Source: Brachycybe producta
Lineage: Eukaryota; Arthropoda; Diplopoda; Playtdesmida; Andrognathidae
Direction: 5' to 3'
DNA length: 64,000 nucleotides
Assembly (NCBI GenBank): GCA_036925085.1
Contig: JAUPFP010000001.1
Span: 10,667,754-10,731,753 of the forward strand
In this document: piece by piece, positions 5,412 to 51,397 of the stretch
Numbering within the stretch: position 1 is the first letter of the stretch
How the letters are laid out: each line of letters begins with the position of its first letter
Translations under genes and position numbers: made by a program
Notes under the pieces: model-generated
The model's database searches: none
The model's input: only the letters and a program-made list of their open reading frames with translations
What the model was told of the DNA's origin: nothing

Positions 5412-6742
5412 ATGGCGATTCGGAAGCTTCTCGGAGAATTTAGAGACATTTTTGCCTTCAAGACCTCCGACTTGAAAAAGACAAATTTGGCAAAACACGT
5501 GATTGACACGGGTGAAAACCCGCCGGTTCGAGAACCGCTCCGGCGTACTTCACCTGCTCAGAGAGAGATCATCAAGTCGACACTACGTGATATGTTGGAC
5601 GCCGGCATTGTTAGCCCATCCAAAAGTCCGTACGCAAGTCCGGTGGTGATTGTCAAGAAGAAGAATGGTCAGCATCGATTTTGCGTCGATTATCGCAAAT
5701 TAAATGCTCAAACCAAAGCTGACCAATATCCGTTACCACGGATAGATGACGCTTTCGACTCTCTGTCTGGAGCCACAATCTTTGCAACCTTGGATTTAAT
5801 ATCAGGTTATTGGCAATTTCCGGTGGAAGAAAGAGATCGAGAAAAAACGGCTTTCGTATGCACCAATGGCCTCTACGAATTTAACAGAATGCCGTTTGGT
5901 TTGATGAATGCACCTGCGACGATGCAGCGTGCTTTGGATTTGTTACTGGCAGGCCACAAATGGGAGACCTGCCTGGTCTATTTAGATGACATCGTCATCT
6001 TTGCGAAAAACTTTGAAGAATTCATGAAAAGATTGAGAGATATCTTGGTGCTCATCAGGAACGCCAATTTAAGCCTTCAACACAGCAAATGTTTCTTCGG
6101 AGAAGACGAGATCAACTACCTTGGACACAAGATTAGTGCCCTTGGTATTCGACCTGATGAAGAGAAAGTGCAGACGATTCAAGGATTTCCTGCACCGAAA
6201 AACGTGACTGACGTCAGAAGCTTCCTTGGAATGACCGGCTACTACAACCGTTTCATTGAGAACTACTCCAAGATCGCCAAACCAATGCAAGCCCTAGTCA
6301 AGAAGGACCTGGACTTCAAGTGGAATGACGACTGCGAGGTCGCTTTTGATGGTTTAAAGAAGGCTCTTTGCTCCGCTCCGATTCTAACTTTGTATGATCC
6401 GGAGGCAGAAATTGCCTTGCACACTGATGCTTGTGATTACCAGATTGGCGTCATAATTTATCAGTATGCGAAAAACGAAAGGAAACCTGGAGTTCTAGGT
6501 TACTACAGCTGAAAACTTCAAGGAGCAGAACGAAACTACGAAACGACTGAAAAGGAATGTCTTGCAATCGTTTATGGCATTGAAAAAGCCAGACCGTACG
6601 TTTTCAACCGAAAATTCAAGATATTTACCGATCATAAGGCCCTGTGTTATTTAAAGACAGCACAGAACTTAGATGGCCGATTGGGTAAATGGCAGATGAA
6701 ACTACAGCCATATGATTATGAAGTAGTTTACAAAAAAAGGTA
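5412..6742 (+). pseudogene. pol: Element A pol, reverse transcriptase and RNase H, with TGA at 6510
   Basis: Reverse transcriptase copies element RNA into DNA; RNase H removes the RNA strand. Visible RT landmarks are SPYASPVVIVKKKNG, FCVDYRKLNAQT, ATLDLISGYWQ, MPFGLMNAPATMQRALD, the catalytic YLDD at 5979-5990 and FLGMTGYYNRFI. RNase H begins near 6400 with HTDA and, after a TGA at 6510-6512, continues in the same frame with TEKECLAIVYGI and a second conserved TDH segment. The frame runs out at TAA 6740-6742, directly after a run of seven A that appears to be one base too long. Confidence 0.93.
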
Positions 6743-6744
6743 AA

Positions 6745-7582
6745 ACGCACGTGGACGCCGATTGTGTCTCACGTTACGAGAGCAACATTCCTGCTAATTG
6801 GAAGCAGAAGAATGGGGAGATGGAAGCTCTGGAAGAGCTTCCCATCTTTACTGTCTACAACGATTTCCAGTGGGAACGGGAGCAATCCCTTGATGAAGAA
6901 CTTCTCCTCATCAAAGAATCACTCCAGAAAGATCGACTGCATCCCTATCACAAGTTGTTTGCGATAGTGGATGGCATTTTATACCATCTTAAGTATGAAG
7001 ACACCGTGCCAGTACTGACGTGTACTGTGCCCCGACAATTGAGAATTGGGATTCTCGAGATGCTCCATGATGTGCCTGAGGCCGGACATTTCGGATTCAC
7101 CAAAACGATGAAGAGAATCCAGAAGAGATTCTACTGGAAGACAATGAAAGCAGATGTCGCCGACTATGTCAGGTCATGCCACATCTGTCAAAGAACCAAA
7201 CTGTCGCACCAAAAAGTACCTGGATTGTTACAACCAATCATTGTGGGAAAACCGACAGAGTGTTGGGGGATGGACTATGTTGGTCCTCTTCCGAAGTCAA
7301 TCGGAGGAGTTCAACATATTTTGATTGCAGTGGACTACGCGACGAAGTATTGCATCGCCAAAGCAGTGGCATGAGCAACCGCTCAGGCAGCAATTGCCTT
7401 CATCAAAGATAAAATTGTAAACGAGTTTGGAGTTCCTCAGAAGATCATCACTGATCGAGGACCCCAATTTGTGAGTAATGAAACTCAAGCGTTTTTCAAG
7501 ACCTACGCAATCCAGCATGCTGCCACGACCACCTATCATCCACAAGCTGATGGGTTGGCAGAAAGAACGAGGAAGTGGTGAA
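6745..7582 (+). pseudogene. pol: Element A pol, integrase zinc finger and catalytic core, broken
   Basis: Integrase inserts the cDNA into the host genome. The HHCC zinc-binding module is seen around 7068-7192 (HDVPEAGHFG ... CHICQ). The catalytic core follows, with the first Asp in GMDYVGP near 7270, the second in TDRGPQF near 7453 and the Glu near 7564. A TGA at 7372-7374 interrupts the core, and a 1-nt deletion near 7570-7578 shifts the frame between the catalytic Glu region and the C-terminal part. Confidence 0.9.
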
Positions 7583-9473: not shown

Positions 9474-9704
9474 CAGCGTGATTTATGTCGTAAAATCCTA
9501 GTTGTGTAAATTCAATTATATTGTTTTTTTTTTGAAGAAATTGTATCTTTTTCAAAACGTAATCAAATATTTTATTTTTCGAAACGTTTTTGGTTTTTAC
9601 CTGTGATACCCCTGGGTCTTATTAATTTAGATCCAGTCGGGGGAGGGGGATTTTTAGGAAAATTGTCTAGGGAAGTAGAGTACTTCCCGCTTAGTCGGGG
9701 GGAG
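9474..9704 (+). other. Element A 3' untranslated region and polypurine tract
   Basis: Non-coding sequence between the pol stop and the right LTR. A short hairpin GGGAAGTA/TACTTCCC lies at about 9670-9687. GGGGGGAG at 9697-9704 directly adjoins the right LTR and serves as the polypurine tract priming plus-strand DNA. Confidence 0.75.
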
Positions 9705-10607
9705 TGAGACGTTTGGGGCCCGCCGCTATTCTCACGGTGTAGCGTTTTTCGTTTTTGGGGGTTCTTTGCGTCACCCTGTACTTTGTGTAGCTCTGGGCCA
9801 CTCGGTACTTTTGGTACCGAGTGACCCAGATATCATATGTGATGAGATAACAATCTGACCTTTTCGTTCCCCCCTCATTTTATTCGTTTTGAGTTTGATT
9901 TTGTTTTCGTTTCTCCTGTTGTCACCTATGTGTGATAACAGGGGATGAGTCATGATTTTGGACAAATGGATCAATCTCTTGATTGGTTTATTTGGTCCAA
10001 AATATTGTTTTAACCAATCGTTCAGTATGGCCCTGAGAATCCGACTTTGGGATTCTCAGGGTATATAAAGTCATTTTTATGTGCTCAAGAGCTTCTTTTT
10101 AATATACCGAACCTATGCCTGATTTTGGCTAGGTTCTTTTCTTTTTAATATTTTCCAAGATATATTTCTATGTGTTGTGTATAACCAGTTTGATGATTGT
10201 ACTGAAATAAATCTACACTTTTATATTCAACTCAACCAGTGGTGTTAATTATTCGAGATTTAAAATTCCGCGATTGTGAATTCATCATTTGCAGGTCTTC
10301 ACCTACTTTGGATACATCAAAAAGGTCCCAACAGGTGCAAACCTGCAACGTACAAGTGAGTATATTTTTACACGATTCTTAGGGCAGATTTACGGACGAA
10401 AGTCCGAGAAATACAGAGGTTAAAGATCCTCAAGACTGTGAAGTCTTTTGCCAGAAACTAGTGAGGACATAAAATAGACGTTATATTGGTCTAGTCCTCC
10501 CGGGCCAGTAGAATTAGTGACCTAGCCAACCACTATCAATACGAGTGCAAACTCGCTCGTATTAACCAAAAAGAGCAGATTCTACTAACGGAAAAAGGTC
10601 CGTCACA
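9705..10607 (+). repeat. Right (3') LTR of element A
   Basis: A 903-bp copy of the left LTR. It keeps the palindrome at 10031-10061 followed at once by TATATAAAG (10062-10070), the polyadenylation signal AATAAA at 10206-10211 and the CGGAC-GAAA-GTCCG hairpin near 10393. It ends CGTCACA directly before the ATGT duplication. Confidence 0.95.
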
Positions 10608-35945: not shown

Positions 35946-36800
35946 GATCACACACACTGGATAATCAAGATCCAGTGATTACACTAGACAACCGAGGACC
36001 AGTGGTCACACACTGGACAACCGAGGACCAGTGGTCACACACTGGACAACCGAGGACCAGCGGTCACACACTGGACAACCGAGGACCAGCGGTCACACAC
36101 TGGACAACCGAGGACCAGCGGTCACACACTGGACAACCGAGGACCAGTGGTCACACACTGGACAACCGAGGACCAGCGGTCACACACTGGACAACCGAGG
36201 ACCAGCGGTCACACACTGGACAACCGAGGACCAGCGGTCACACACTGGACAACCGAGGACCAGCGGTCACACACTGGACAACCGAGGACCAGCGGTCACA
36301 CACTGGACAACCGAGGACCAGCGGTCACACACTGGACAACCGAGGACCAGCGGTCACACACTGGACAACCGAGGACCAGCGGTCACACACTGGACAACCG
36401 AGGACCAGCGGTCACACACTGGACAACCGAGGACCAGCGGTCACACACTGGACAACCGAGGACCAGCGGTCACACACTGGACAACCGAGGACCAGCGGTC
36501 ACACACTGGACAACCGAGGACCAGCGGTCACACACTGGACAACCGAGGACCAGCGGTCACACACTGGACAACCGAGGACCAGCGGTCACACACTGGACAA
36601 CCGAGGACCAGCGGTCACACACTGGACAACCGAGGACCAGCGGTCACACACTGGACAACCGAGGACCAGCGGTCACACACTGGACAACCGAGGACCAGCG
36701 GTCACACACTAAACAACCGAGGACCAGCGGTCACACACTGGACAACCGAGGACCAGCGGTCACACACTGGACAACCGAGGACAGTGGTCACACAAGTCCT
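35946..36800. repeat. 29-bp minisatellite, about 28 units
   Basis: Unit GGACCAGCGGTCACACACTG plus GACAACCGA. Units are almost identical; the few variants include CAGTGG for CAGCGG in early units and one CTAAACAACC unit near 36709, with degenerate units at both edges. The 29-bp length steps through all three forward frames and none contains a stop, which yields long repetitive but spurious protein frames. Each unit holds the small palindrome GACC-AGC-GGTC. Confidence 0.97.
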
Positions 36801-37140
36801 CCGAGGACCTTTGTGAGTCACATTATGTTCGAGGACTTCAGCTATTGTATGACCTGAAAATGTATTGGGCTGAACAACTGAGGACCTCTATTTTTTCGAG
36901 TGTATAAGTACCCTATTAAAATTTTACACACGGTGTATATGAGCCCAGTCTAACACATTCAAAAAGAGGACTGTCTGCAAATTTAACATAATTTTGTATT
37001 TTTGACCTACAAACGTCCTTTAGTGGATTTCTTACCAAAAAACAACCGAGGACGTCCTCGGTTGAAAGCATGTCCTCAGTTGAAGGTGCGTAATCATTAA
37101 AATGTCCTCGTTTGACGGTGTTAACAAGAGCACACACACA
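36801..37140. other. Flank of the minisatellite with inverted copies of its core word
   Basis: CCGAGGAC-type words continue here in both orientations, including the perfect 22-bp palindrome at 37043-37064 (CAACCGAGGAC and its complement) and TGTCCTCAGTTGAAGG / TGTCCTCGTTTGACGG. The array apparently expanded from a small inverted-repeat locus. Confidence 0.65.
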
Positions 37141-37613
37141 ATCAAGTGTACAAAATAATAAAATTTATTTATTTATAATAATTTCATTATTAAATATTAA
37201 TTTTAAAATGTGACTTGAGGGCCGCATTTTGTGGCTCTCGAGCCACATTTTCATTATCATTTCCCATTAAAAACATGTTGGGGCCCCAATCGCCGACATA
37301 CCAGCATAGGGCCACATTTTGTGGCTCGTGGGCCTCATACATAATTCGCCCCCACCAAAAACCAATTTAATTGTTTGCCGCCATTTTGTTTTTGTTTTTT
37401 TGCACCTAAAAATACACCAAAAACACAATTTGGTTTTTTGGGGTGGGTGGGAGAAATCTGGAAAATTTGCCGACCCCTTTTACCACTATGTTGGAAATTT
37501 GGAAGGGGGTGGGGCGGGAGAAACCTAGAAAATTTGCCGACACCCTTTTGACACCATGTTGTTAATTTGGGAGGGGGTGGGGTGAGGGTGACATATTTAA
37601 CTTCACCAATATT
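37141..37613. repeat. Low-copy repeat with a ~68-bp tandem duplication
   Basis: A word around GGGCCACATTTTGTGGCTC occurs at about 37225 and 37308. A 68-bp segment with GAAAATTTGCCGAC and GGGGGTGGGG occurs twice in tandem (about 37440-37505 and 37506-37580). No gene is seen. Confidence 0.65.
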
Positions 37614-37708
37614 GGTACACCCTTATAGCAACGAAAGTGACGTCATGAGAGGGGTTGACAGGCCACGCCCCCCTCATGACGTCACTTCCGTAGCTATACG
37701 GGTGTACC
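37614..37708. repeat. Inverted repeat with two CRE-type TGACGTCA sites
   Basis: Arms 37614-37654 and 37668-37708 (41 bp each, about 36 matching) face each other across 13 bp. Each arm has a full TGACGTCA palindrome (37638-37645 and 37677-37684), the consensus site for CREB/ATF factors. Whether it is a regulatory site or a transposon end is not clear. Confidence 0.7.
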
Positions 37709-38035
37709 ATACTACTGCCCTTCATTATATAACCCCTGTTTACTTTTATCCCCCTTCCTCTTCTCTTGAAAATACCCAGACAAGAGAACTGTCTGGAGAA
37801 TGAGGAAACAAACAAAATTCCCCCCCACAGCCCTAGGCCACCTAGCAACCCAAACAAACCAGTGGGAAACCAATGGGAAGCCTCCAGTGCAAGCCTATGG
37901 AGGCCATTTCCTATAAAATGACCACAAGTTGGCTCAGAAAATTATTAGGACATTGGCTTTTCAGCCATCTGCACTGGACACTTCTCAGCAGTGAATCTTC
38001 TACTAGTTAAGAGTATTTGAAGAGGACATATATCT
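37709..38035. other. Unclassified sequence with promoter-like TATA element
   Basis: Less AT-rich than the surroundings. CTATAAAATGACC near 37910 resembles a TATA box with a following CA-rich start region. It may be part of an old LTR, but no matching second copy lies in the window. Confidence 0.4.
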
Positions 38036-38345
38036 GAGCACTGGTTTCCAATTCACTGGAGTACTGTGGTTCAGACTGTGTTTAATCAGATTACTGCTTA
38101 ACTACCTTGAGAAAGGATAGCTAAACTGATTTCTTGCAGTCTTATCATTGGGTTACTGTGGTGCTACGAGTTTCCTTTCCTTTGGAGTACTGCTAGGCAT
38201 AAAAGTTTCCATTTGGAGTACTATAGAAACTATTGGTTTCCATTAATTTGGAGTACTGTAGTGACTATTGGTTTCCATACTTTAAAGAGTACTGTAGGAC
38301 TTATTGGTTTCCAAGTTAGGAGTACTGTAGCTCCAAAGGTTCCCA
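38036..38345. repeat. Degenerate tandem repeat, 35-40-bp units
   Basis: About seven units share GGAGTACTGTAG and TTGGTTTCCA, for example at 38213, 38249 and 38289. Element B is inserted 16 bp after the last unit. Confidence 0.75.
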
Positions 38346-38357
38346 GTGAGGAACTAT

Positions 38358-38361
38358 AAAG
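38358..38361. repeat. Target site duplication AAAG, left of element B
   Basis: Directly precedes the left LTR and is repeated at 51398-51401 directly after the right LTR. Confidence 0.88.
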
Positions 38362-38479
38362 TGTGACGACCCAGTCGTGCTCCTTTTTGGTGCAGAACTA
38401 AATCCCATGTCGTCTGCTAGGCACTTGCTAGATTGAGTGCCAGGCAGACGACAAAATGGCCAGCAAGGGTCCCTGTCCT

Positions 38480-38513
38480 CCCCCAGGTGGAGCAGCCTGG
38501 GGGTGTATATAAT
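38480..38513 (+). promoter_or_regulatory. Element B LTR core promoter: palindrome plus TATA
   Basis: A perfect 8-bp stem with 8-nt loop ends 2 nt before TATATAAT. The same arrangement occurs in the right LTR near 50729-50762. The order palindrome-TATA is also found in the otherwise different LTR of element A. Confidence 0.7.
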
Positions 38514-39089
38514 GGCGGCGGCCATTGTATACTGGACAGTGGAATGAGAACCCTTGATGATGGTAGTTGTGTGTGTGTGCTCTCATCAATTCAGCAGGTG
38601 GCCAAAATGGCCACCATTCATCTTTTGTTTGCTGTTGTGTAAAGAGGTCAATGGCCTCCTCTCCTGGCTGAATTAGCCAGGAGATTCATCTCTACTGTTC
38701 ATCTCTTCAGTGAGTGATTTTATTGCTTATTTATTCCATTGAATAAATCTCTTTATTATTTTCACTCACCCACTGTGTCCATGTCTGTTATTATACTTAT
38801 TTATAATACTGGGGAAGTTACCACGGGGAGGGTGGGGGTTGTCGGCTGGGGTTGCCGCCCACCACGTCCTGTTTCCGGCATGTTTGTCATCGTGTCGGCC
38901 GGTGCTTCGCGCGCGGTTTATCCACGGTAGGATTCATCGGGAATCTACCGTGGATTCCTCGTCTTGTTCGGCGGTCTTCGTCCGTCGACTTGCGGCGTGG
39001 AGGATCCTCCGATCGGCGCTACCCGTGGCACGGACGGGTGCAAGAGGAGGGCTGGCCAGCGCTTCGACCCCTCCCAAGGAGGGTCAGCG

Positions 39090-39098
39090 ACGGTAAGT
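39090..39098 (+). promoter_or_regulatory. Candidate 5' splice site in U5 of element B
   Basis: ACG|GTAAGT is a near-perfect donor and lies downstream of the TATA and polyadenylation region, so it would be included at the 5' end of the transcript. A matching strong acceptor is at 47591, before ORF3. Splicing is inferred. Confidence 0.55.
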
Positions 39099-39149
39099 TA
39101 AGTGATATTTACCGTGGGTATTGTAGCGACCAAGTCGGGTCATTACAAT

Positions 39150-39167
39150 TGGTGGAGGCGCCGGGTA
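39150..39167 (+). promoter_or_regulatory. Primer binding site of element B
   Basis: TGGTGGAGGCGCCGGGTA begins 2 nt after the left LTR and starts with TGG. It matches the element A site at most positions. Confidence 0.8.
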
Positions 39168-39222
39168 GCGCTACCACCAGCCTCTCTTGTGCGGTCGGTA
39201 AGACCGGAGTCGTGTGGTGCCG

Positions 39223-39981
39223 GTAGGGCGTGGACATTTGTCCACGGAACTACGGCCGATCGCGGCTTAGGGCGTAGTAGTCCGGTGAAGGACCGTGGGA
39301 CACGGACGGTTGTCCGTGATATCGTGGTGGTCACCGGGGAAAGCCCTAGGTTATCCGTAAATAGGACGGTGGGCACGGTGGTTGACCATGCAGGACCGTC
39401 CGAACGCGGGATAACGGTCTTTTTACCGTCAGTATACCGGTGGCACGGTGATTTACCGTGCGGAACCGGTAGAACCCGGTGAAAAGGAGAACTTAACCGT
39501 AGCTTGTCCGGTAGACAGGTAGTACGCCATAGGGCACGGACTTTTGTCCGTGGAACTATGGCGGAAACCCGTCTACGGCCAGGTTTACCGGTGATATACC
39601 GTGGGACACGGACTTTTGTCCGTGATACCGTGGTAAAACCGGGTTACGGTCAAGTTTTACCGTAAGTAGGCAGTGGATTACGGACTTTTGTCCGTGAATC
39701 ACCGTTCGAACACGGTAAGAAGTCAGCTTCACCGTTGGGGGACGGTAGATTACGGACCGTTGTCCGTGTATCTCCGTTCTAGGACGGTGAAGGAGCTTTT
39801 TATCGCGAATAGACGGTGAATAACGGACGGTTGTCCGTATATCACCGGTCGAAAACGGTAAGAAGGGACTCCACCGTAAAGCTAACCGTGGGACACGGAC
39901 TTTTGTCCGTGAAACTGCGGTAGTTTACGGTTCTACCGTTAATTGTCGGTGTTTTGCGGACTCTTGTCCGTAAATTCACCG
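39223..39981 (+). ncRNA. Array of about eleven structured hairpins in the element B leader
   Basis: Repeated two-tier stem-loops lie at 39223-39253, 39292-39328, 39364-39401, 39435-39471, 39526-39562, 39597-39635, 39671-39704, 39742-39777, 39814-39847, 39882-39923 and 39947-39981. Most share an inner stem CGGAC-N4-GTCCG, extended by covarying pairs, then a small internal loop, then an outer stem of 4-8 pairs. Loops vary (TTTT, GGTT, ATTT, CGTT, TCTT). The array lies between the primer binding site and gag, where packaging, dimerisation or translation signals of retroelement RNA normally sit. The role is inferred. Confidence 0.75.
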
Positions 39982-40069
39982 TATTTCACGGTAGAGTTTC
40001 TTCCAACAAGTGGTGGCCAGTTTTGCCCGTGTTCGCACGGACGAAATCGGCCAAGACCCCGTTTTCCCG

Positions 40070-41882
40070 ATGTCTGGTCGGGGAAGCGGATTGTTGGAAG
40101 AGTTGGAGTTGCGTTCCCGCACCTTCGGCCGTGGTAGGCGGCCGGAGGGGCGGCACCCTGTTGAGGGTGCTGTTGGCGGGAACGCACCCGGTGATTCCAC
40201 GGAGGAAGGTGTCGTAGAGGTTGAACCTACGGACCAACCTCCGGCTGGAGGCTTTGTGACGGTGCGGACGCACCGTCGGGACACTGCCTCCGGTGGAGCA
40301 CCGGGAGACGGTGGTGATGGAGGGTCACCGACCCCAACTGGGACAGGCGGACAGCCTATGGCCGGCCTGTTAACCTCCACCGCCTCCCGTCCTGTTGGAC
40401 GTGGAGGTAATCCCTTAGCGGGAGAGGTGGTAGGGACCCCGGGGCCACCCTCAGTGAACACGACGTCATGGTTGGCGTCGATGACTGAGGAGGAGCTCCG
40501 TGAGGTTGCCAGGGGGATTGATGAACTGCGATGGCAGGGTCATCTTTCCCCAGGGATCGGGCGGCTCCATCGGTCGCAACCTCGGTTCACACCGTCGCCC
40601 GTGCACCGGGAAGGTGCAGGTAGGGAGGTGCCGCCGGCTCCGGCCAGGCGGATGCCTCCCGGTGGAGGAACTAGGACCGCTCCTACGGGAGGTGGTCGGA
40701 GAGTTCCTCCGCCCGTTCAGCGACCACGGGTCCACTTGGTGAAGCCCGAGGATGCTGATCCTGATGCTGAGACTTCGGGGAACCGGAGCAGAGCACCACG
40801 GCGGGTAAGTACCCGCGCCGTGGACGCCTGCCCCGGCTGTCCCGTCGGAGATCCAGGCGTTTGGGTTTTTTAACCCGGTTCACTCGTTCATCCGTTATGA
40901 TGGACGAGAGGACATTACGCCTTTTCTCCGGCAGTTCGAAGCCAAAGCTCGGGCTCAGCGCTGGACGGATGAGGCCAGGTGCAGTTTCTTTACGTACCTG
41001 CTCGATGGTCCGGCTGAGGAACATTACGCCTGTTTGGTGGAGTTCAAGCCGAACCTGACCTGGCCGGAGTTGAGGCAGGCTATGCTTCACCGCTTTGGGA
41101 CGAAGAATCAGGCTCAGGCCTGTTTTGACCGTTTCGAGGCCATGAAGCAAGGGCCTGCGGAATCACTCCAGGCGTTCTACGAGTTTCTGGCGGAACGAGT
41201 TTCTCCTGGTGAGGATGAGTCTTGTCGACTCCTCCGGTATAAGAAGAAACTGCAGCCGGAGATTCTCAGACCTCTCTGGGGATCGAAAGCTGAGACGGTC
41301 AGGGACTTTACCACCGAGGCAATGTTGGTCGAGGCCGACATGCATACGGCGGGAGCGTTACCTGCCCGTACCTTGACGGTACCAGGGACCCAGGCTGCGG
41401 CCAAGGTCTCTGGTGCTGTGGCAAAGCCCAAGAGCTCTGCTACGTCTACTTCTACCTCTTCGGGTGCGAAGGCAGCGGCACCGTCCAAATCGGACGGAGC
41501 TACTGCCAAGACCGGAGGGCAGAAGGGAAGAAAGACGAAGCGGCGGAGCCAGGGTGAAAATAAGTCCACAGCAGCCCCGTCAGGTTCCAGCCAAACGGCT
41601 GGAGGTGGAGGTCCTACTCGTAGGCAACCAGGTCCATGCTTTCGGTGTAACCAGATGGATCACCTTAGGAAGGACTGTCCGAGGGCAGTTGCCCAAGAAC
41701 AGGTTGCTCGAGTACCACCGGGCGAAAGCCCGGTGGTGCAGTACCTGCCGGGTCTGGCACCCGTGGTACTGCAGGGCCGGGAGTATCTGTCCACCGTAAT
41801 TGATGGACAGATGTTCTATCTACCTATCGCCAGAAACGAGGGCCTGCCCTCGTTAAACCGGCGCCGGTCCCTGCAGAACTGA
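40070..41882 (+). pseudogene. gag: Element B gag, one frameshift
   Basis: The first ATG in frame is at 40070 (MSGRGSGLLEELE). The N-terminal 250 residues are Gly/Pro/Arg-rich and disordered. A frame change in 40806-40865 separates this from the capsid core (about 40866-41350), which contains a typical retrotransposon-gag segment (ITPFLRQFEAKARAQRW, then LTWPELRQAMLHRF). An Ala/Ser/Lys-rich linker and one zinc knuckle (CFRCNQMDHLRKDC, about 41639-41680) follow. The frame ends at TGA 41880-41882, inside a -1 frameshift signal. Confidence 0.88.
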
Positions 41883-41897
41883 GCTGCAGACGACCGG
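41852..41897 (+). promoter_or_regulatory. Element B gag-pol -1 ribosomal frameshift signal
   Basis: Gag codons read xxG TTA AAC, giving the heptamer GTTAAAC (41852-41858), a slippery type known from arteriviruses. After 5 nt a stem-loop begins: CCGGTC (41864-41869) pairs with GACCGG (41892-41897) and CTGCAG (41871-41876) with CTGCAG (41884-41889), loop AACTGAG. The gag stop lies in the loop. The -1 frame is open from here into protease. Confidence 0.82.
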
Positions 41898-43573
41898 TAA
41901 TGCTTGAAAACTCAGGTGTCCGGCAAAACCGGCGAAGTAAAGAAGGAGCGTACCTTCGGGCAGTCTCTAGATATGTGGGTATCCTGCATGACGCAGGGGT
42001 GCCTCTGGCTAGGTCTGCAGACCCAGAAATTACCCAGTGGGTATTTCAGGAGCCAAGCCCCACACTGGAAGCTGCGCTTGCCCGGCTGGAGAGCTGGGTG
42101 GCACCTTTCTTCCCTGATGAGGGGGAGGAAGGTCCGAATGGTACGGGCATTACGAGGGCTTCGAGCGTTGGTGCGCCCATGCTGTCGCCCAGGCCTGGTG
42201 GGTCTCCTGGTGTGGAGACTGGAAGCCAGGCCCCTGAGCATCCGGTACGACTGTCCCCTGGGGACGGAAGGACGGATGAGGCTCAGAGAAGTAATGTCGG
42301 GCAACGACGGTTGCCCATTCCGGAATTACAGAGCCGTGCTTACTTGCGTGGGGCACCGCGTGTTCTGGTGTCGATGGATGGTCGGCTGGTTGAGTCGATC
42401 GTCGACACCGGTGCCGAAGTATCGGTCATGAGCATGTCGGTGGCACGGGAGATGGAGTTGCCGGTGCAGGAGGTTAGCCTCCCCTCATTCCTGACGGGCA
42501 TGAGCGGGTACTCCATCCAGATAGAAGGAGTCATGTACGTGGACATGTCAATCCACGGACGGTCCATACATACCCATCTTCTCCTCATTGAGGGTGAAGG
42601 GGAAGCCGTAATAGGTGTTGACCTGGCTTCCCAGTTTGGGTTAATGTTGGACGTCGTGAGCCGGAAAGTTTATTTCCGGGAAGACATCTGGAATGCACAT
42701 CCAGATGCTCTTCATGCCGCACTGGCCGTTCAGGCTGCGCAGGGTACTTCGGTACAACTTCCGAACTCGGTGGTGGAGGCGTTGGCGAGGCTTCACGATT
42801 CTGTGGAGCCGGTGCTACTCCCTCCTTTCGGGTTCCCGGAAGGTATGCCTGCGGAGCCTGAAAAGGTGGATGGGTGGGTTGACATTGTGTCACCCACGCT
42901 TGCCGAGACCAGTTCTCCAATTAGGAGCGGGGAAGTTTGTTCCCTGCGACTGTTGCAGAACGTATGGTTATCAGCTCATGAGCGGAAGGTAGTTTCCGTG
43001 AGCTTGATAGAGCATGCTGGCCCTGGACAGCTGCTTCTCGTTGAGCCCCATCGTAAAGCCTTAGGTGGCCGGGGTCTGTTGGCAGTGGCAGGGATTGCCG
43101 AAGCCACAGAGGAAGGCTCTTACGACATTTGGCTTGAGAACGTCGCCGACGTACCCATTGCCCTGGAAACAGGGGAGGGTGTGGTGACAGCTCAAGCTGT
43201 GGAGGCAGCCCTAGTGGTGGGACTGGACGATCCATCTAAGTTGAGAGGGGGAGACCCCACTCATGGAGATGGTCGACCAGGGGGGCTTCCGCCTAAGTTG
43301 AGAGGGGCAACCAAGAAAGGTCGCCGGGTCCTCAATGCGGAAGTCAAACCCACTCTTGAAGAGTGCCTTAAAATCGGACCTAGTCTGAAGCCTGAGGAGG
43401 CGGCACAGCTTCGGGAGTTCCTGCTTGAACGCATCATTTTGCGTTCGATTATACAGAGCTGGGGGAAACCCCGCTCGTCGAACACACTATTGATACCGGT
43501 GGGTTCCCTATTGTGCGTGAAGGATTGCGAAGAACCGCTCCGGCGGCTCGTGCAATCGAGAGAGAAGAGGTAG
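41859..43573 (+). CDS. pol: Element B pol, N-terminal part with aspartic protease
   Basis: Entered by -1 frameshifting. After a linker of about 170 residues comes a retropepsin domain with the active-site DTGA at 42404-42415 and a downstream VIGVDLASQFG motif near 42608. A linker to RT follows. From about 43430 the homologous reading is in the next frame (one base missing near 43425-43435), and this frame then runs on without homology to its stop at 43573. Confidence 0.9.
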
Positions 43574-44724
43574 CAAAAATGTTGGATGCAGGGGTAATCC
43601 AACCTTCGCATAGTCCCTACGCGAGCCCTATCTTGCTTGTTCGCAAGAAGAATGGTGGCTTTCGTTTTTGCGTGGACTATCGGCGACTGAATGCCCAGAC
43701 TAAGGCGGATGAGTACCCGTTACCTCGCATCGATGATGCCCTCGATTCACTTGCTGGAGCGAAGTATTTCGCAACTCTAGACCTTGCTAGTGGTTACTGG
43801 CAGGTTAGGATGGCGGAGCAAGACATTGAGAAGACAGCATTCATTTGCTCTCAAGGTCTTTTTGAGTTCCGAAAAATGCCTTTCGGACTCTGCAATGCTC
43901 CTGCCACTATGCAAAGAGCGTTAGATCTCTTGTTGGCGGGACACAAGTGGGAGAGCTGCTTGGTGTACCTAGACGATATTATCGTCTTTGGGAGCACCTT
44001 TGAGCAGTTTCTCGAACGCTTGAGTACTGTCCTGAGACTGTTACGAGGGGCGGAGCTGAAACTCCAGCCGAAGAAATGTTTCTTCGGTTTTGACAAAGTC
44101 AAGTATCTCGGTCACATTGTGAGTGCCGAGGGAGTTGCTCCTGACCCGGGACTCGTAAGAGCAGTCGAAGAGTTCGATGTCCCTACAACGGTGACCGCCG
44201 TCCGAAGTTTTCTTGGACTGGCCGACTACTACCGTAGGTTCATCATGGACTTTGCCAAGATCGCCAGACCTCTGCATGATCTGACCAGGAAGGATGCGTC
44301 CTTTGACTGGTCGGAGCAGTGTGGACTAGCGTTCGAACGGTTAAAGGCATTTTTAACCGAAGCACCGGTGCTCACCATGTATGATCCACGTGGTGAGGTG
44401 TTAATTCACACCGATGCTAGTGGGTACGGTCTAGGTGTCGTAGTATACCAGAAGCTACCTGAGGACAAGGCTCCTCGGGTTCTGGCCTACGCTAGCCGTC
44501 TCATGAAGGGACCGGAAACACGGTATAGTGTCACCGAGCAGGAATGCTTGGCGATCATGTTTGCCGTGGGTAAATTCCGACCTTACATCTTTAACCGGGA
44601 CTTTGTGATCGTAACAGATCACCATGCGCTCTGTCATTTGCAGACTGCCAAAAACCTGCAAGGCAGGTTGGGGCGTTGGCAAATGCAGTTGCAGGAGTAC
44701 CGGTATAAGATTCAGTTCAAGTAG
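43431..44724 (+). CDS. pol: Element B pol, reverse transcriptase and RNase H
   Basis: Classic Ty3/gypsy RT landmarks are SPYASPILLVRKKNG, FCVDYRRLNAQT, FATLDLASGYWQ, MPFGLCNAPATMQRALD, the catalytic YLDD at 43966-43977 and FLGLADYYRRFI. RNase H starts near 44406 with HTDASGYGLG, and TEQECLAIMFAVGKFRPY and a TDHHAL segment follow. The frame stops at TAG 44722-44724, but integrase sequence continues in the same frame directly after it, so the TAG is a nonsense mutation. Confidence 0.94.
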
Positions 44725-45303
44725 GGGAAACTTCACGAGGATGCTGACTGTCTGAGTCGGTATCCGGTGAATGAAGTTGTTGATCCTTCTTTGCCTGAAC
44801 ACGTCGAAGCCGACGTGGGTGAGGTCATTTACCGGATCCGGTCTGAGGTGGATTGGGTAATGGAGCAGGCCAACGACAGTTGGTGCTCCAAGGTGAAGCG
44901 TGAGCTCTCCACCGACCCCGACTCGAACTTAAGGTTCAAGTTCGTGGTGGCAGACAAGTTGTTGTATGCCATCAAATCCATCCAGGATCGCACCAGAACT
45001 GTGTTGGTTGTGCCGAGGTCGTGTCAAGCCTTCTGCTTGCGGAAGTTGCACGATAGCTCCGAAGCTGGTCACTTCGGAGTGTACAAGACCTACCAACGTA
45101 TGCGTACTCGTTTCTACTGGTTAGGTATGAAACGTGACACGGTGGAGTATGTTAAGTCATGCTTAGTGTGTCAGAGAGTACGACAGTTCGCAAGAGCTCA
45201 AGGATTCTTGCAACCCATAGTTCCTGAGTACCCGGTTCATGCCTGGGGAATGGACTTCGTTGGGCCTTTTCCCGCGTCCGTGGGTGGAGTCACAATGTAT
45301 TGA
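44725..45303 (+). pseudogene. pol: Element B pol, integrase N-terminal zinc finger, broken at the end
   Basis: It follows the TAG in frame. The HHCC module is at about 45045-45180 (LHDSSEAGHFGVYKT ... CLVCQ) and the first catalytic Asp is in GMDFVGP near 45250. A single missing base near 45297 shifts the frame, so the stop at 45301-45303 is not ancestral. Confidence 0.9.
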
Positions 45304-46442
45304 TTATGGTGGATTACTTCACCCGGTACGGCGTGGCAAAGGCAGTACGAAGGGCTACGGCCGCTTGTGTTGTCAAGTTTCTGAAAGATGAGATATTGTC
45401 GGTGTATGGCACACCGACTACTCTCATCTCGGATCGTGGATCCCAGTTCTGTAGCAAGATTTTGCGAAAGTTCCGGGAGCGCTATAATATAGCGCAGCAC
45501 TTCACGACGGTGTACCATCCGCAGGCTAATGGGCTTACGGAGCGTACGAACAAGACCGTGATGGAAACCATCAAGCGTTACCTTGATCCCCTCAAGGAGC
45601 AACGTGATTGGTGGGAGAAATTGCGGCCCGCCGTGTGGGCCTACAACACTACGGTGCAGGAGAGCACGGAAGTGTCTCCGTACCAATTGTTTTTTGGTCG
45701 TGAGCCTAGGTTGGGGATTGACAATCTCCTTCCTAACGGTCCGGTCCGTGACTTGCCTGACCAGCAAGCCGTGGAGGAGCGTGCTCGGCAAAATTTGGCG
45801 GCCGCTCAAGCCAGACAAAAGAGTCGGTATGACGCCGGCCGGGTGGAGCCACCCCGATACCAGCCTGGTAATAAGGTCTGGATAAGGGACATGGCTGGGA
45901 AGCTCGGTCAAGCCAAGAAGTGGAATTTCGCTTACAAGGCTGAACTGGGTACGGTGGTCCGGCAGGTTTCCGACCTGGTCTACGAGATAGAATTCGTAGA
46001 TGGGTATGGTCGGAAGGTGCGGGACCGGTTCCACGTTGATAATTTGAAGCCGTACGTTCCCACATGTGGAGTTCGTGAGGAAGATGGCCTTGGTGGCTCT
46101 GAAACCTCATCGAGCTCTGAAGGGACCAGTGATGCTGAGTCTGGGTCAGCTGGAAGTGAGAGGAGGGATGATGTCTCTCCAGGACCTTCTGGCCAGCCTA
46201 GCTTGGTGGTGGAGTCAACTGACTCTGAGGCAGAGGAAGCACCTCGGCCCCGGTATTACCTCCGTCCGAGGAAACCCAGGGCTTTTGAGGTTCTGCAAGC
46301 TTCCTCTGGAGCTCCAATAGGCACCAGGGTGGTGCAGGGACTTTGGAAGTCCCTGTCCTGGTGGGAGAGAGCAGGTCATTCCCTGTTGTGGGATGATGAC
46401 TTGAATTGGGGAAATAAGGATTGGGAGCGCAGTGACCCCTAG
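45300..46442 (+). CDS. pol: Element B pol, integrase core and C-terminal domain
   Basis: Contains the second catalytic Asp in SDRGSQF near 45431 and the Glu in GLTERTNK near 45530-45550. A GPY/F-type C-terminal module (PGNKVWIRD ... YEIEFV, about 45868-46000) and an acidic Ser-rich tail follow. It stops at TAG 46440-46442. The same frame stays open for another 120 codons to about 46802. Confidence 0.9.
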   Translation: MIMVDYFTRYGVAKAVRRATAACVVKFLKDEILSVYGTPTTLISDRGSQFCSKILRKFRERYNIAQHFTTVYHPQANGLTERTNKTVMETIKRYLDPLKEQRDWWEKLRPAVWAYNTTVQESTEVSPYQLFFGREPRLGIDNLLPNGPVRDLPDQQAVEERARQNLAAAQARQKSRYDAGRVEPPRYQPGNKVWIRDMAGKLGQAKKWNFAYKAELGTVVRQVSDLVYEIEFVDGYGRKVRDRFHVDNLKPYVPTCGVREEDGLGGSETSSSSEGTSDAESGSAGSERRDDVSPGPSGQPSLVVESTDSEAEEAPRPRYYLRPRKPRAFEVLQASSGAPIGTRVVQGLWKSLSWWERAGHSLLWDDDLNWGNKDWERSDP

Positions 46443-46802
46443 ACTGGGCGCCGCCTGTCTGTCACGGACAGATGGCGGTTGTTCAGGGGGAGCTGGGTGG
46501 AGAAATCCACAATTCCCAGCTGCAAACTCGAAGAGGAGTCTGCAGCAGTGATTCCCAATAAAGATCTCTCTCCTGAGTCTTTCCATAGAGATTCAGGCCG
46601 TGTATCTGCTCCTATTGTGGCAGACGACGGTAGAGTCTCTATGGTAACAGCAATGGAGGCGGCTAATGATGTTTTAGCTGCCAAGCCGCCGCTGTTAGTT
46701 GTCTCTAATGTGAAATTAGCGGCTAAGCGCCATCTTGTTTTCAAATTGAAACATAGACGGTCGTTTGCCGCTATTTTTAAAAGAAAACGTCTATTTCACT
46801 GA
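46443..46802 (+). other. Open extension in frame after the element B pol stop
   Basis: About 119 sense codons follow the pol TAG in the same frame and end at 46800-46802. The composition is mixed and basic at the end (KLKHRRSFAAIFKRKR). It could be a tail read by stop-codon readthrough, or pol may once have been longer. No domain recognised. Confidence 0.4.
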
Positions 46803-46960
46803 CGAAACGGCAAAGATCCAGGATTATTGGATGCTGGAAAAAGCAAAGTAAGTCCCCAAAGGGGAATTTCCTTTTCCTGCCCTTTGGCAGTATTCTTTTA
46901 TTGCTTTTGGGTGTGTCAAGCAGTCATTGACCGCTTGAACACGTGGTTTTGGTGGAGGCG

Positions 46961-47545
46961 TCACCGTCATAATTTTGACGGTGATGCTACCGCTGATGGG
47001 GCCGTAAGAGACACGGTGTTTTGCCGCCCGAACGCCGTGGAACTTGGTGATGACCAAGTTCTACGGGGTTTGGACGGTGAAAAGGTGTTTTTACACGGTT
47101 CTGTCCGTGAAACCACCGTGGAGAACGGTTTCGACCGTGATCCACGGTGTTCTAACCGACGGAAAGTGGTTTTGCACGGTAGTGTTCAATGTAAACCACG
47201 CCCCAAGCAACCTGAATTATCGGTGCCAGGTTTGGACGGTCCAAGCACCTGTTTGGCCGATTCCGACCGTGCGAGTCCCGTGAAGGACGGTTTTTACCGT
47301 GGATCACGGGATATGCACGGTGGAAACGGGATATGCACGGTGGAAACGGGATTTCCTACGGTGATGTACCGTGGAAATCACCGCCCAAGATACCGAACGT
47401 GATATTACGGGATTTGGACCGACCAAAAGTTTTTGGCCGGTTCCGACCGTGCAATTACCGTTGGGGACGGCTTTGGCCGTGTACCACGGTGCCTGCCCGG
47501 CCGGAAAACATTTTTTCACGGTTTTGGTCCGTGGAAAATGTTTCC
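46961..47545 (+). ncRNA. Second hairpin-rich block, between pol and ORF3 of element B
   Basis: Several strong stem-loops built from CCGT/ACGG words are visible: 46961-46984 (9-bp perfect stem), 47040-47061 (9-bp perfect stem GAACTTGGT, enlarged by an outer CCGT/ACGG), ACGGT-TTCG-ACCGT near 47133, ACGGT-TTTT-ACCGT near 47286, ACGGC-TTTG-GCCGT near 47466, and 47503-47545, with nested GGAAA/TTTCC, CATTTT/AAAATG and CACGG/CCGTG pairs. The block resembles the leader array in vocabulary and ends just before the ORF3 splice acceptor. Confidence 0.65.
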
Positions 47546-47569
47546 TACCGTAGTAGGTCAAATACTTAC

Positions 47570-47595
47570 CATGTTTTTTGATCTTTTTCAGGTAG
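47570..47595 (+). promoter_or_regulatory. Candidate 3' splice site before ORF3
   Basis: A T-rich tract (TGTTTTTTGATCTTTTTCAG) ends in CAG at 47589-47591, giving a strong acceptor. ORF3 is open from 47582 and has no in-frame ATG before 47888, which fits expression from a spliced mRNA that may bring its start codon from an upstream exon. Confidence 0.55.
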
Positions 47596-50530
47596 CCACG
47601 GCGGAGAAGGAAGAAACTGGCGGGGTGGCAGCGGTTCCTCCTCCCTCAGCTCTTTGCATCCGGGGGATGCAGAGCTGTTGGAGTCGGATGCCGCTTGCTC
47701 CCCGAACTCTTTGGGTCGGGCCATAGCTGACTTGGCCGACGGCGGACCTTTGGGTCTGCTATTGGCTGATGATGCTGTGGTGACCCAGCCGTCCCCTCGG
47801 ACCCCTCTATACTATGGGTCTGTTTGGGGACGGTTGACACCGCCTCCCACCGTGGGTTCTCCGAGGGCGACCATTAAGTTGGGAGCCATGGAGATCCCGG
47901 CGGTTGGTGAGCCGGTGCGGGCCAGCACGCCCATCGAAGAGGTGGCCACCGGTTTGGCAGCTACCTCTTTGACGAAGTGTGATCCTCCGGCGGACCAAGG
48001 CCTGCTAGAATTGGCTAGCCTGGCTGAGGAAAGCAGGGATGCCTCTTTGGGAGGAACCCTGGTCATTGACACGGAGGCGGAGATGGACACCATGGAAGAT
48101 GATGTGGTGCCCGTCTCCAGGCGGTGGCAAGGCCAACGGATCCTCTCTTCAGAGGACTCTTCGGAGTCTGAAGGGAGAGGATCAGGCTCCCTGGGTAAAC
48201 GGTCTGTGACCGGAGCCCAGGAGGGTACTCCAGCCCGGAAGGGCAGTCCAATTCCGGTCGACCCTGTTGGGGAGGCAGAAGCGGCCTGTCTGGAAAGGCA
48301 AGATGAAGCCGTGCAGTACCAAACGGCGTCAGGTGGTTTCCTGGCATCGGATGGGAAACGCTACTTCGTTGGGGAGTACCCTACCCAGCAGTTCCGTAAG
48401 GACGGTTCTAAATCCAAAAAGAAGTCCGGAGCTGCTCGGTACACCGCCAGGATGAAAGCCCTGGCGAAGAGAGAGGCACAGTTGGAGAGGACGAAGGCTG
48501 CCTTGGCGAAGTTTACGCCGGCAGTGGGTCTTCTCCCTGTGTCGCCAGCTCATCCTGAGGAAGCTGCTGGTGCTGCCTGGCCTGTTGGTCAGCCTCCGGT
48601 TTCGGGACCAACCGAAGCGGAGGCTGGCTGTTCAAGCTGGCAGTCTGCAACTCCCAAGAGGGTCCGAAGAGCGGAAAAGAAGGCCAATCAGCCTTCTCCT
48701 CCCGCTCCGAGGAAGAGCGCTCACGCCAGTGGTGGTGGTGGTCAGGGACAGAAACGTCCCCGCCCCTTCACCCCACCTTTGGCCAGTAATCCGGTGGGAA
48801 AAAAGGCTAAGACCTCTCGTGGAGGTCCGGCCGGCTTTCCCAAAGGAAAGTGGAGCCAGGAGGACCGCTTGCGGTACCACCAGGCACAAGCGTCCAGATG
48901 TGCTGCCCTTGTCCTGCGGGACAAGAAGGCTGCACGCCGTCGGGAGTTTGAGCTCCAGGCCTCTCAGTTTCCGCCCCTGCGGGACGCTGATGCCAGGAAT
49001 CCGCTCAGTACAGAGGAACCTCCCGTCGGAGTTGGTGCCACTCCTATTGCGAGTGCCACCACGGCCGCTGGCCAACAGCGTATCGCCCAAAGGGGGGCGG
49101 TACAAGCTGCCAAGGCACCTCACCAAGGTGCGGCAGTTAAACCTGTTGGTGGCAAGGGTCAGCCGACCCTTGCCCCGGAGAAGAGAAATCTTCCCCGGGA
49201 CGGAAAGGGACGCTTCGTGGCGACACGAGCATCCTCGACTGTCGGTTCGGCTACGGGAGCTAGTTCAAAGACTAGTACAGCTTCGGCTAGAAAGTCTGCG
49301 ACTAGTAAGTCCGGTCAATCGAAGGGGGCTAACCACCCTCCTAAGACTGACCGGCCCGGTAAGTCTGCGAGCCTTGGTGCGTCCAGCTCACAGCACGGTG
49401 AACCTTCTTCTCATGAAAAGAAGAAAAAGAAAAAGAAGAAAAAGAAGGGCAAGAAGGCCCATCATGAGAAGAAGGGAGGTCCGAAAACTTCCACCCGTGG
49501 GTCCCAGGGGACTGGTGGTGGTGGAAGTATCGGGACCGAGGAGGAGGAGTCCCGACACGGTGCGGCCGTGTCGGCCGGGAGCCAACCGCACCATACCCGT
49601 CATAGCAAGACGGCGCGGATGGATGATCGGTCAATGCGAGACGTTGTTCTCGGTATACCGTCATCCTCCCCGAAGGTGGTGGCGGTACCGAACTTGTTAG
49701 TTCGGTCGGTGGGAACTCTCCACCGGGTCAGCTCACCGTTACCTAGCGGTGGGGGCAGCCCGGCGGGGAAAAGTGACGTTCCCACCAAACGTGGTCCCGT
49801 GCCTTCCGTAGGAAGGACACCCTTCTCTCCAGGTCCCGATGACGGGGTCTTTGCGGCCCTAGGACTGGAAGAAAGAGCCAAGTCTCCTGAGCCCGAGGGC
49901 GAGGGTCGACGCTTTGGTGCGGAGCCTCCGTATTCAGAAGGAGAGGTCTTTCTGAATAACCGGCTTGGTCTGTGGCAGGACCAGCCGGGAATGGAGGGGT
50001 ACCAATACCACGGATACTATCGTCTGGGGGAGCCACTCCCAGTTCCGTGGACGCCGTCGTTGCCGTCATTTGCCATGCGTTATGTGCTGGCATTTGGCAG
50101 TATAGACTATCCGGTGTTGCTGGTCGTCAACCCGGTAAGGAGATGCTTTGCTGTTCTAGACGTGTTGGGGACAGGAGCTGGACTAGTACATGTAGCCCAG
50201 CTCGCGGCCCCATACGTCCAGCGTCTCCTTGGCTGCGACTTGGAAGGAATGGTGGGGGAATATGTAACCCACCCTCTACGAGGTAGCGTGTCCGATCCCG
50301 CGGCCGCCCTCGTAGACCTTCTTACAAGTCGGACTCTTCGTCAGAGTCCGCAACTTGACACACTTGCCGTCGAAGCGTTTCGACAGCAAGAGGTGTTAAG
50401 GCTCAGGGGGACTGATTTTGATGTCGGTCTCGGGTGGAGAAACACCCGGATGTGTTCATGGTGGATATGTCGGGGGATGTCGGAGTGGATGGTGGCTCCG
50501 ATGAATCCACCACCGAAAAAATCAGTCTGA
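47582..50530 (+). CDS. Element B ORF3, 958-residue or longer protein of unknown function
   Basis: An intact frame open from 47582 to TGA 50528-50530; the first in-frame ATG is 47888. It lies where env sits in retrovirus-like gypsy elements, yet I see no signal peptide, no membrane anchor and no furin-type site. Residues 1-750 (counted from 47654) are low-complexity: acidic/Ser early, then Lys/Arg/Pro/Gly-rich, with a run of 11 Lys near 49420-49452. The last 190 residues (from about 49945) look folded, with a hydrophobic stretch YPVLLVVNPVRRCFAVLDVL. No family recognised. It could be a nucleic-acid-binding accessory protein. Lack of any stop over 2.9 kb, while gag and pol are broken, is notable. 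Confidence 0.75.
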   Translation, partial: SFSGSHGGEGRNWRGGSGSSSLSSLHPGDAELLESDAACSPNSLGRAIADLADGGPLGLLLADDAVVTQPSPRTPLYYGSVWGRLTPPPTVGSPRATIKLGAMEIPAVGEPVRASTPIEEVATGLAATSLTKCDPPADQGLLELASLAEESRDASLGGTLVIDTEAEMDTMEDDVVPVSRRWQGQRILSSEDSSESEGRGSGSLGKRSVTGAQEGTPARKGSPIPVDPVGEAEAACLERQDEAVQYQTASGGFLASDGKRYFVGEYPTQQFRKDGSKSKKKSGAARYTARMKALAKREAQLERTKAALAKFTPAVGLLPVSPAHPEEAAGAAWPVGQPPVSGPTEAEAGCSSWQSATPKRVRRAEKKANQPSPPAPRKSAHASGGGGQGQKRPRPFTPPLASNPVGKKAKTSRGGPAGFPKGKWSQEDRLRYHQAQASRCAALVLRDKKAARRREFELQASQFPPLRDADARNPLSTEEPPVGVGATPIASATTAAGQQRIAQRGAVQAAKAPHQGAAVKPVGGKGQPTLAPEKRNLPRDGKGRFVATRASSTVGSATGASSKTSTASARKSATSKSGQSKGANHPPKTDRPGKSASLGASSSQHGEPSSHEKKKKKKKKKKGKKAHHEKKGGPKTSTRGSQGTGGGGSIGTEEEESRHGAAVSAGSQPHHTRHSKTARMDDRSMRDVVLGIPSSSPKVVAVPNLLVRSVGTLHRVSSPLPSGGGSPAGKSDVPTKRGPVPSVGRTPFSPGPDDGVFAALGLEERAKSPEPEGEGRRFGAEPPYSEGEVFLNNRLGLWQDQPGMEGYQYHGYYRLGEPLPVPWTPSLPSFAMRYVLAFGSIDYPVLLVVNPVRRCFAVLDVLGTGAGLVHVAQLAAPYVQRLLGCDLEGMVGEYVTHPLRGSVSDPAAALVDLLTSRTLRQSPQLDTLAVEAFRQQEVLRLRGTDFDVGLGWRNTRMCSWWICRGMSEWMVAPMNPPPKKSV

Positions 50531-50610
50531 AACTGAGTGGGGGTCATGGGCGCAATCCTTGCTGGCTCAGCCGACCTGATCCCGGGGCGGATCAGGGAAG
50601 TTGAGAGGAT
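50531..50610 (+). other. Element B 3' UTR and polypurine tract
   Basis: A short non-coding stretch after ORF3. The purine-rich GGGAAGTTGAGAGGAT at 50595-50610 adjoins the right LTR and is the likely plus-strand primer. Confidence 0.65.
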
Positions 50611-51397
50611 TGTGACGACCCAGTTCTGCTCCTTTTTGGTGCAGAACTAAATCCCATGTCGTCTGCTAGGCACTTGCTAAATTGAGTGCCAGGCAGACGA
50701 CAAAATGGCCAGCAAGGGTCCCTGTCCTCCCCCAGGTGGAGCAGCCTGGGGGTGTATATAATGGCGGCGGCCATTGTATACTGGACAGTGGAATGAGAAC
50801 CCTTGATGATGGTAGTTGTGTGTGTGTGCTCTCATCAATTCAGCAGGTGGCCAAAATGGCCACCATTCATCTTTTGTTTGCTGTTGTGTAAAGAGGTCAA
50901 TGACCTCCTCTCCTGGCTGAATTAGCCAGGAGATTCATCTCTACTGTTCATCTCTTCAGTGAGTGTTTTTATTGCTTATTTATTCCATTGAATAAATCTC
51001 TTTATTATTTTCACTCACCCACTGTGTCCGTGTCTGTTATTATACTTATTTATAATACTGGGGAAGTTACCGCGGGGAGGGTGGGGGTTGTCGGCTGGGG
51101 TTGCCGCCCACCACCGTCCTGTTTCCGGCATGTTTTTCATCGTGTCGGCCGGTGCTTCGCGCGCGGTTTATCCACGGTAGGATTCATCGGGAATCTACCG
51201 TGGATTCCTCGTCTTGTTCGGCGGTCTTCGTCCGTCGACTTGCGGCGTGGAGGATCCTCCGATCGGCGCTACCCGTGGCACGGACGGGTGCAAGAGGAGG
51301 GCTGGCCAGCGCTTCGACCCGTCCCAAGGAGGGTCAGCGACGGTAAGTTAAGTCAAATTTACCGTGGGTATTGTAGCGACCAAGTCGGGTCGTTACA
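50611..51397 (+). repeat. Right (3') LTR of element B
   Basis: A 787-bp copy of the left LTR, with TATATAA at 50755, AATAAA at 50991-50996 and the GTAAGT site near 51342. It ends GTTACA before the AAAG duplication. Confidence 0.95.

Follow-up and report, generated by a model that had tools for sequence, protein, structure and literature searches.

Why should the leader of a retrotransposon carry a row of repeated hairpins, and are they kept as RNA or as DNA? These questions are raised by a 64,000-nt stretch of contig C1 from the diplopod Brachycybe producta (the window, in whose numbering all positions are given unless a contig is named), where an earlier note had described about eleven covarying hairpins in the leader of a gypsy element. 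Eleven units are indeed found there, and covariation between them is strong. The best explanation is that an array of about eleven three-tier hairpins is kept by selection as sense-strand RNA. As far as titles and the beginnings of abstracts show, this is an apparently undescribed form of a known class, the cis-acting leader RNAs of retroelements: among open-access papers surveyed at that level no such leader array was found, an absence that is not proof.

The hairpins belong to a Ty3/gypsy-type element of 13.0 kb (38366-51397), assigned as such by its TG...CA long terminal repeats (LTRs) and short target duplication, together with the order protease, reverse transcriptase (RT), RNase H and integrase. 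The 5′ LTR (38366..39147, + strand, TG...CA) and the 3′ LTR (50615-51397) are 98.3% identical, and the element is flanked on both sides by AAAG, the LTR ends and the duplication being read from the sequence. A putative 5′ splice site, GGTAAGT (39092..39098, +), lies 5′ of the primer-binding-site region ATTGGTGGAGGCGCCGGGTA (39148..39167, +). A likely N-terminal gag frame opens with the ATG at 40070 (40070..40873, +), and the Retrotrans_gag domain with its CCHC knuckle (40809-41882) is read in a different frame; the gag frames thus differ in the window copy, and interrupted coding frames were left unjoined. Domain searches place RT–RNase H at 43429-44724 and integrase at 44725-46442 (both +). 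Further downstream are a second hairpin cluster between integrase and the third open reading frame, ORF3 (46950..47570, +), a 3′ splice-site-like tract of pyrimidines with CAG at its end, immediately 3′ of that cluster (47574..47591, +), and ORF3 itself, which encodes 880 aa (47888..50530, +) and matches no Pfam family at E 0.001.

The array consists of 11 back-to-back hairpins (u1 to u11, all on the + strand) between the primer-binding site and gag, with a period of ~72 nt; the steps between tile centres are 72, 72, 73, 89, 72, 72, 72, 71, 72 and 61 nt. In the predicted fold, three stems are stacked in each unit: the inner one closes a small loop and is parted from the middle one by an internal loop, and the third lies outermost. 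The units had previously been described as two-stem structures: the two inner tiers are real, but the outermost stem had gone unlisted, and because each unit has one, the array spans 39205-39996. The first unit, u1 (39205..39270), has the inner stem CGTGGAC/GTCCACG and the loop AUUU, and u2 (39277..39342) has the loop GGUU; for each of the two, none of 200 shuffles was as stable. They are followed by u3 (39349..39414), with a variant inner stem, a 5-nt loop and one C-A mismatch, by u4 (39422..39487), with the variant inner stem GCACGGU/ACCGUGC, and by u5 (39511..39576), with the loop UUUU and AGUA opposite GAA between its middle and outer stems. The remaining units are u6 (39583..39648), u7 (39655..39720), u8 (39727..39792), u9 (39798..39863) and u10 (39870..39935), each with a shuffle-tested fold, and u11 (39931..39996), which comes 61 nt after u10.

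The inner stem of the repeated unit had been given as CGGAC-N4-GTCCG. This CGGAC/GTCCG core is common to most units, with arms that vary from unit to unit, but u3 and u4 are without GGAC...GTCC and have GGU/ACC stems instead. Two copies, at 39223-39253 (GTAG-gg-CGTGGAC-attt-GTCCACG-gaa-CTAC) and at 39525-39563 (CGCCATAG-gg-CACGGAC-tttt-GTCCGTG-gaa-CTATGGCG), bear out the compensatory changes that had been noted between them: they have a common 2x3 internal loop, and the inner stem differs by two double compensatory changes and the stem outside the loop by one. At 39292, 39597 and 39885, a stem had been said to be kept only through G-U pairs; G-U pairs are present in the middle stem there, but 'only' is too strong, because this stem also has Watson-Crick pairs. 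A search of Rfam with positions 38300-41000, at E up to 1, returned only two sub-threshold mir-3116 matches, both in the LTR.

RNA folding had been proposed earlier as a check on the hairpins. Each of the 11 tiles of 66 nt folds as one three-stem hairpin and is more stable than all 200 of its dinucleotide shuffles (z -3.0 to -8.6). For the 871-nt leader, the minimum free energy (MFE) is -442.6 kcal/mol, compared with -318.4 +/- 6.6 in 20 shuffles (z -18.8), and its antisense reaches -379.4 kcal/mol (z -14.0). Comparison folds gave z -7.2 for the RT region of the element and z -4.2 for a LINE ORF; the element's coding RNA folds beyond expectation, and the leader far more so. In 150-nt windows the gap narrows (mean z -4.4 in the leader vs -2.7 outside 39000-40000). 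Hairpin density was tried as a specific mark of the array and rejected, since the coding region scores equally high: a centred-hairpin scan found similar densities for the leader (11.9 matches per kb), gag-pol (11.3) and ORF3 (11.4), and 4-8 matches in each of ten mononucleotide shuffles of the 922-nt leader. What distinguishes the array is its regular spacing together with its covariation. As an observation apart from the array, many 150-nt windows in the coding part (40070-50530) have z below -3, which resembles genome-scale ordered RNA structure.

Covariation is most apparent when the units are compared with one another. In an ungapped alignment of nine window units, 8 pairs show two-sided changes, compared with 3.5 +/- 1.3 in shuffles (0/500 as high); with slid partners, the same alignment yields 1-4 such pairs. 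Swapping arms among the 11 window units leads to the same conclusion: the mean energy is -32.1 kcal/mol with a unit's own 3′ arm and -22.8 kcal/mol with a foreign one (~9 lost per unit), none of 100,000 permutations was as good, and the own arm was the best partner in 7 of 11 units. With 32 units whose flanks are less than 80% alike, no permutation out of 20,000 was as good; for 16 units less than 65% alike, 0 to 2 of 20,000 were as good in sense and 0 to 7 of 20,000 in antisense. Because the swaps of the window units perform equally on the antisense (z -6.3 vs -6.4), they are evidence for pairing and not for strand. Neutral decay of an old palindrome, in turn, should not favour own arms over foreign ones. 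A pooled ungapped column scan of 197 units was discarded, as it mixed registers.

How far does the array extend beyond this element? The inner-hairpin pattern has 2038 matches in the 295.3-Mb genome, compared with 5 for the reversed pattern, and the 100 matches listed fall into 36 clusters with 72 nt as the commonest spacing. Around listed matches, 20 regions were taken, all on contig C1 and chosen by the inner-hairpin pattern; at a BLAST E of 1e-5, all 20 resemble the window leader and 19 resemble its gag (L019 does not). By likeness to the window leader we distinguish family A (~90-97%) and family B (~75%), with one short leader (L028, 78% alike) left unplaced. In family C, the main gag pieces are ~66-73% identical to the window element and the LTR has no match. 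A model (R1) built from nine window units, applied to the gag strand with a cut-off of E 0.01, found 9 units in the window leader, 11 and 12 in the family B leaders L017 and L026, and 3-8 in nine family C loci. The less specific tile scan gave 11 units in family A, 12-15 in 5 family B leaders and 7-9 in 6 family C leaders; because the density scan is unspecific, these counts are upper readings. Members without an array had been named as grounds for doubt, and the diverged families B and C both have it, in a survey limited to leaders found by pattern or similarity, so that arrayless relatives would be missed. A scan of IMG/VR yielded 7 stretches with the inner hairpin, none of them an array. 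Another gypsy-type element in the window (1243-10362) has a primer-binding site that by eye resembles the one here (four mismatches), no array in its leader of ~170 nt, and a third ORF (7551-9473) without similarity to ORF3.

Between orthologous copies, the support from covariation is modest. The earlier note had proposed an R-scape test; tree-based R-scape-like scans gave no pair at E 0.05, either in 44 leaders of families A and B or in 52 sequences over units 9-11, a result of little power that neither supports nor refutes much because independent stem substitutions are few. The 52-sequence scan counted 3 compensatory events vs 0.8 simulated, with 9 of 200 simulations as high. Orthologous arm swaps excluded u6, which is probably not orthologous and had the largest difference. 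Between families A and B, chimaeras were less stable in 8/9 units with 27-nt flanks (p 0.0098) and in 6/9 with 19-nt flanks (p 0.10); across all family pairs the counts were 10/11 and 10/15, respectively. Substitution is slower in paired than in unpaired columns in 15 of 16 comparisons (for the window copy and L036, for example, 0.19 vs 0.32), the exception being L040 and L022 (0.042 paired vs 0.030 unpaired). The window copy and L036 differ by 21 double changes, where 11.3 are expected under independence, and 15 of these still pair; the pair is kept in only 27 of 75 one-sided changes. When the structure of L040 is carried over to the window copy, only 12 of 30 double changes keep the pair. 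More compensatory stem substitutions than in shuffled alignments are clear between units (0/500); between orthologues no pair is significant and the support stays modest. The evidence for covariation comes mostly from repeated units of one RNA, and not from orthologous species.

The earlier note had also argued for a fold of RNA rather than DNA, which is supported by the inner pairs, where G-U mispairs outnumber A-C. In a fixed register over the three pairs next to the core, the 256 distinct units (taken from every GGAC-N4-GTCC in the loci, a few of them outside arrays) have a G-U:A-C ratio of 169:13; the ratio is 24:4 in 43 units less than 80% alike, and 13:3 in 28 units less than 70% alike (p 0.02 vs 1:1). 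Among changes between copies, it is 36:29 for family A and, for family B, 191:126 (p 0.0003 vs 1:1); set against the family B ratio, 24/28 has P 0.0035 and 13/16 has P 0.07. When isolated mismatches were counted more loosely, over all arm pairs and without regard to strand, the difference was not significant (54 G-U vs 40 A-C, p 0.18); this count was replaced by the fixed-register one because cross-matches between repeated arms dilute it. In the folds of the window units, G-U accounts for 26 of 259 pairs in sense and 6 of 224 in antisense, a comparison in which MFE folding itself favours G-U, and the sense fold is the stronger (-32.1 vs -27.2 kcal/mol per unit). Of 241 distinct contexts, 183 have the loop NNUU, and some others are of the NNUG or UNCG types. 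Together, the G-U excess, the strand of the fold and the NNUU loop point to sense-strand RNA. One further detail is a lead only: AGUA opposite GAA, which we take to be the signature of a sarcin-ricin (bulged-G) motif, is rare in its exact geometry (2 of 78 unit types, or 27 of 377 distinct units, including u5 of the window and a family B unit), and AGUA and GAA co-occur (17/19 vs 25/59, p 0.00026).

Motifs around the array suggest which transcripts would carry it. In 51 of 53 related copies, GGTAAG[T/A] stands no more than 100 nt 5′ of the primer-binding site; as background, GGTAAG[T/A/C] is present in 126 of 2295 100-nt blocks of the sampled loci. A message spliced from this putative donor would lose the primer-binding site, since the motif lies 5′ of it. 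The second cluster (46950-47570) contains bipartite hairpins with inner ACGG..CCGU stems, followed by TTTTTTGATCTTTTTCAG; a family C locus (L061) has a similar cluster and a similar tract at the homologous place, and in two family B loci (L060 and L063) the region of the cluster is absent. With a putative donor 5′ of the primer-binding site and an acceptor-like tract after the second cluster, both clusters may stay on unspliced RNA only: if these outer sites are used, the clusters would be intronic in an ORF3 message and may thereby mark unspliced RNA. The window leader has three further GGTAAG motifs (39197, 39714 and 39857), two of them inside the array, the use of which would let part of the array persist in spliced RNA.

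What could such an array do? The best explanation, to which we give an even chance, is a multivalent cis-acting signal on the sense genome RNA. The leader RNA would form about eleven three-tier hairpins in a row, and the units would serve as repeated docking sites for one RNA-binding protein. Splicing from the putative donor to the putative acceptor would remove the arrays, so that only unspliced genomic RNA stays marked, and the element's own zinc-knuckle Gag could read the units, resulting in multivalent, selective genome packaging. The upstream place of the donor motif favours functions that depend on unspliced RNA, on the assumption of the putative splicing. Gag, in selective genome packaging, would be the likeliest reader, at a probability that we place somewhat below even; as in a packaging signal, a predicted structured leader RNA is found near the primer-binding site and gag, and Gag has a CCHC knuckle. 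The next likeliest reader, proposed tentatively, would be a nuclear-export factor or the ORF3 product, exporting the intron-containing genome; no present evidence tells packaging and export apart. A more specific and rather doubtful proposal is a periodic scaffold, in which the ~72-nt step would seat a defined copy number of one RNA-binding protein per unspliced genome, with either Gag or a Rev/CERV-like ORF3 product as its reader. If this were true, unit number would tune genome selection or export, and the genome could gain or lose whole clusters at other places, of which the cluster before ORF3 may be an example. The natural series of unit numbers in this genome provides a direct test ground for multivalency. 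Dimerisation, one of the functions suggested earlier, is disfavoured in the form of kissing loops, because the usual NNUU loops are not self-complementary.

To our knowledge, little is known of the signals by which Ty3/gypsy elements are packaged and exported. The array is like retroviral Psi in being structured RNA near a primer-binding site and gag, in an element whose Gag has a zinc knuckle; unlike Psi, it is a near-regular three-tier array with a donor motif 5′ of the primer-binding site. Psi of Rous sarcoma virus (RSV) lies 5′ of the donor and is present on spliced RNA too, according to the relevant passages of PMC5035971. The constitutive transport element (CTE) of type-D retroviruses and the direct repeats of RSV likewise act in cis on unspliced RNA, as a structured or a repeated sequence; the RSV repeats lie on either side of a coding region (same passages of PMC5035971), just as two clusters flank gag-pol here. 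In contrast to the array, the CTE is a single two-fold symmetric element, ~130 nt long, in the 3′ part of the genome, as described in the part of PMC4330390 that concerns it. Another relative in function may be Cer1 of C. elegans, an LTR retrotransposon that depends on a viral protein (CERV) to bring its unspliced genomic RNA out of the nucleus, but the searched passages of that source (PMC10309623) do not mention a hairpin array.

Among the other explanations, the one that survives best, unlikely as we consider it, is that the leader is a long structured 5′ UTR governing gag translation by internal entry, shunting or slow scanning. In its favour, AUG is scarce: 51 leaders (a count that took in 7 of 11 family C loci) contain 91 AUG in total, compared with 255 CAT and with 394 expected from dinucleotide shuffles, 15 of the 51 are free of AUG, and the likely gag AUG lies 3′ of the array in families A and C. 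Ribosomes may therefore travel the leader, which would make a translation role possible, and one antisense mRNA of an LTR retrotransposon is reported to contain an IRES (in the relevant part of PMC10974842). The depletion may, however, mean ribosome passage only, part of it is stem composition because CAT is also below the expected number, and the copies are related, so the 51 leaders are not independent cases. Moreover, unit number varies among families, which would be unusual for an IRES, and the second cluster is far from gag.

Improbable in our view is a DNA element, that is, palindromic repeats bound by a host DNA-binding protein in an enhancer, an insulator or a CpG island. The Su(Hw) insulator of Drosophila gypsy offers a likeness, in that a protein binds a gypsy element at twelve repeated sites (from the passages on it in PMC4717254), but these are DNA sites, and the G-U:A-C ratio of 24:4 in 43 units argues against a DNA role for the array, as do the stronger folds in sense, the asymmetric internal loops and the prevailing NNUU loop. 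Closest in look are the boxes of Sireviruses, clustered short CGG...CCG palindromes in non-coding DNA, also before env, whose CGG-CCG core (e.g. CACCGGACTGTCCGGTG) is close to CACGGAC-N4-GTCCGTG (box descriptions in PMC2829016). Sireviruses are plant Ty1/copia elements with boxes in LTRs and before env that are, by the same descriptions, mostly >85% identical within an element, whereas the array is set apart by its leader position, long covarying arms and RNA-type mispairs. Nor are its units highly alike short palindromes: their arms differ, and u3 and u4 of the 11 are coreless.

Just as improbable is a functionless by-product of mutation, with tandem duplication and template switching in reverse transcription re-creating palindromes. 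The near-regular tandem arrangement of the units, with some gained and others lost, fits this reading, and quasi-palindrome correction is a known process. Such correction is expected to erase internal loops and G-U pairs, however, and it is also opposed by the slower change of paired columns in 15 of 16 comparisons and by the presence of the array in families whose main gag pieces are only ~66-73% identical. Least probable of all is a substrate for small RNAs, with hairpins cut by Dicer-like enzymes to feed or decoy host silencing: small RNAs map in excess to palindromic-motif clusters in maize Sireviruses (a passage of PMC10760457, citing Bousios et al. 2016), but here the arms differ among units, unlike conserved miRNA (for which reason a miRNA cluster is also disfavoured), and the loops are merely 3-5 nt.

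The multivalent RNA signal thus remains our preferred reading, and a few observations from the surrounding sequence and the genome stand apart from it. At least 8 copies of a 29-nt tandem repeat occupy 36500-36840, where the antisense folds strongly (z about -5 to -8). Some 650 nt 5′ of the element, at 37576-37725, both strands fold strongly (z -11.5 and -9.1). Mitochondrial genes identify the host as an animal: COX1, on a contig of 15.4 kb, reads through ten TGA codons, and ND1 of that contig, translated with the invertebrate code, has its highest score (348 bits, the next being 279) against PDB chain 8b9z_H, from Drosophila complex I. Lastly, large contigs contain COX1-like copies (C1:12697416-12698753, and C17 near 4.03 Mb), which are likely nuclear mitochondrial DNA insertions or assembly joins.
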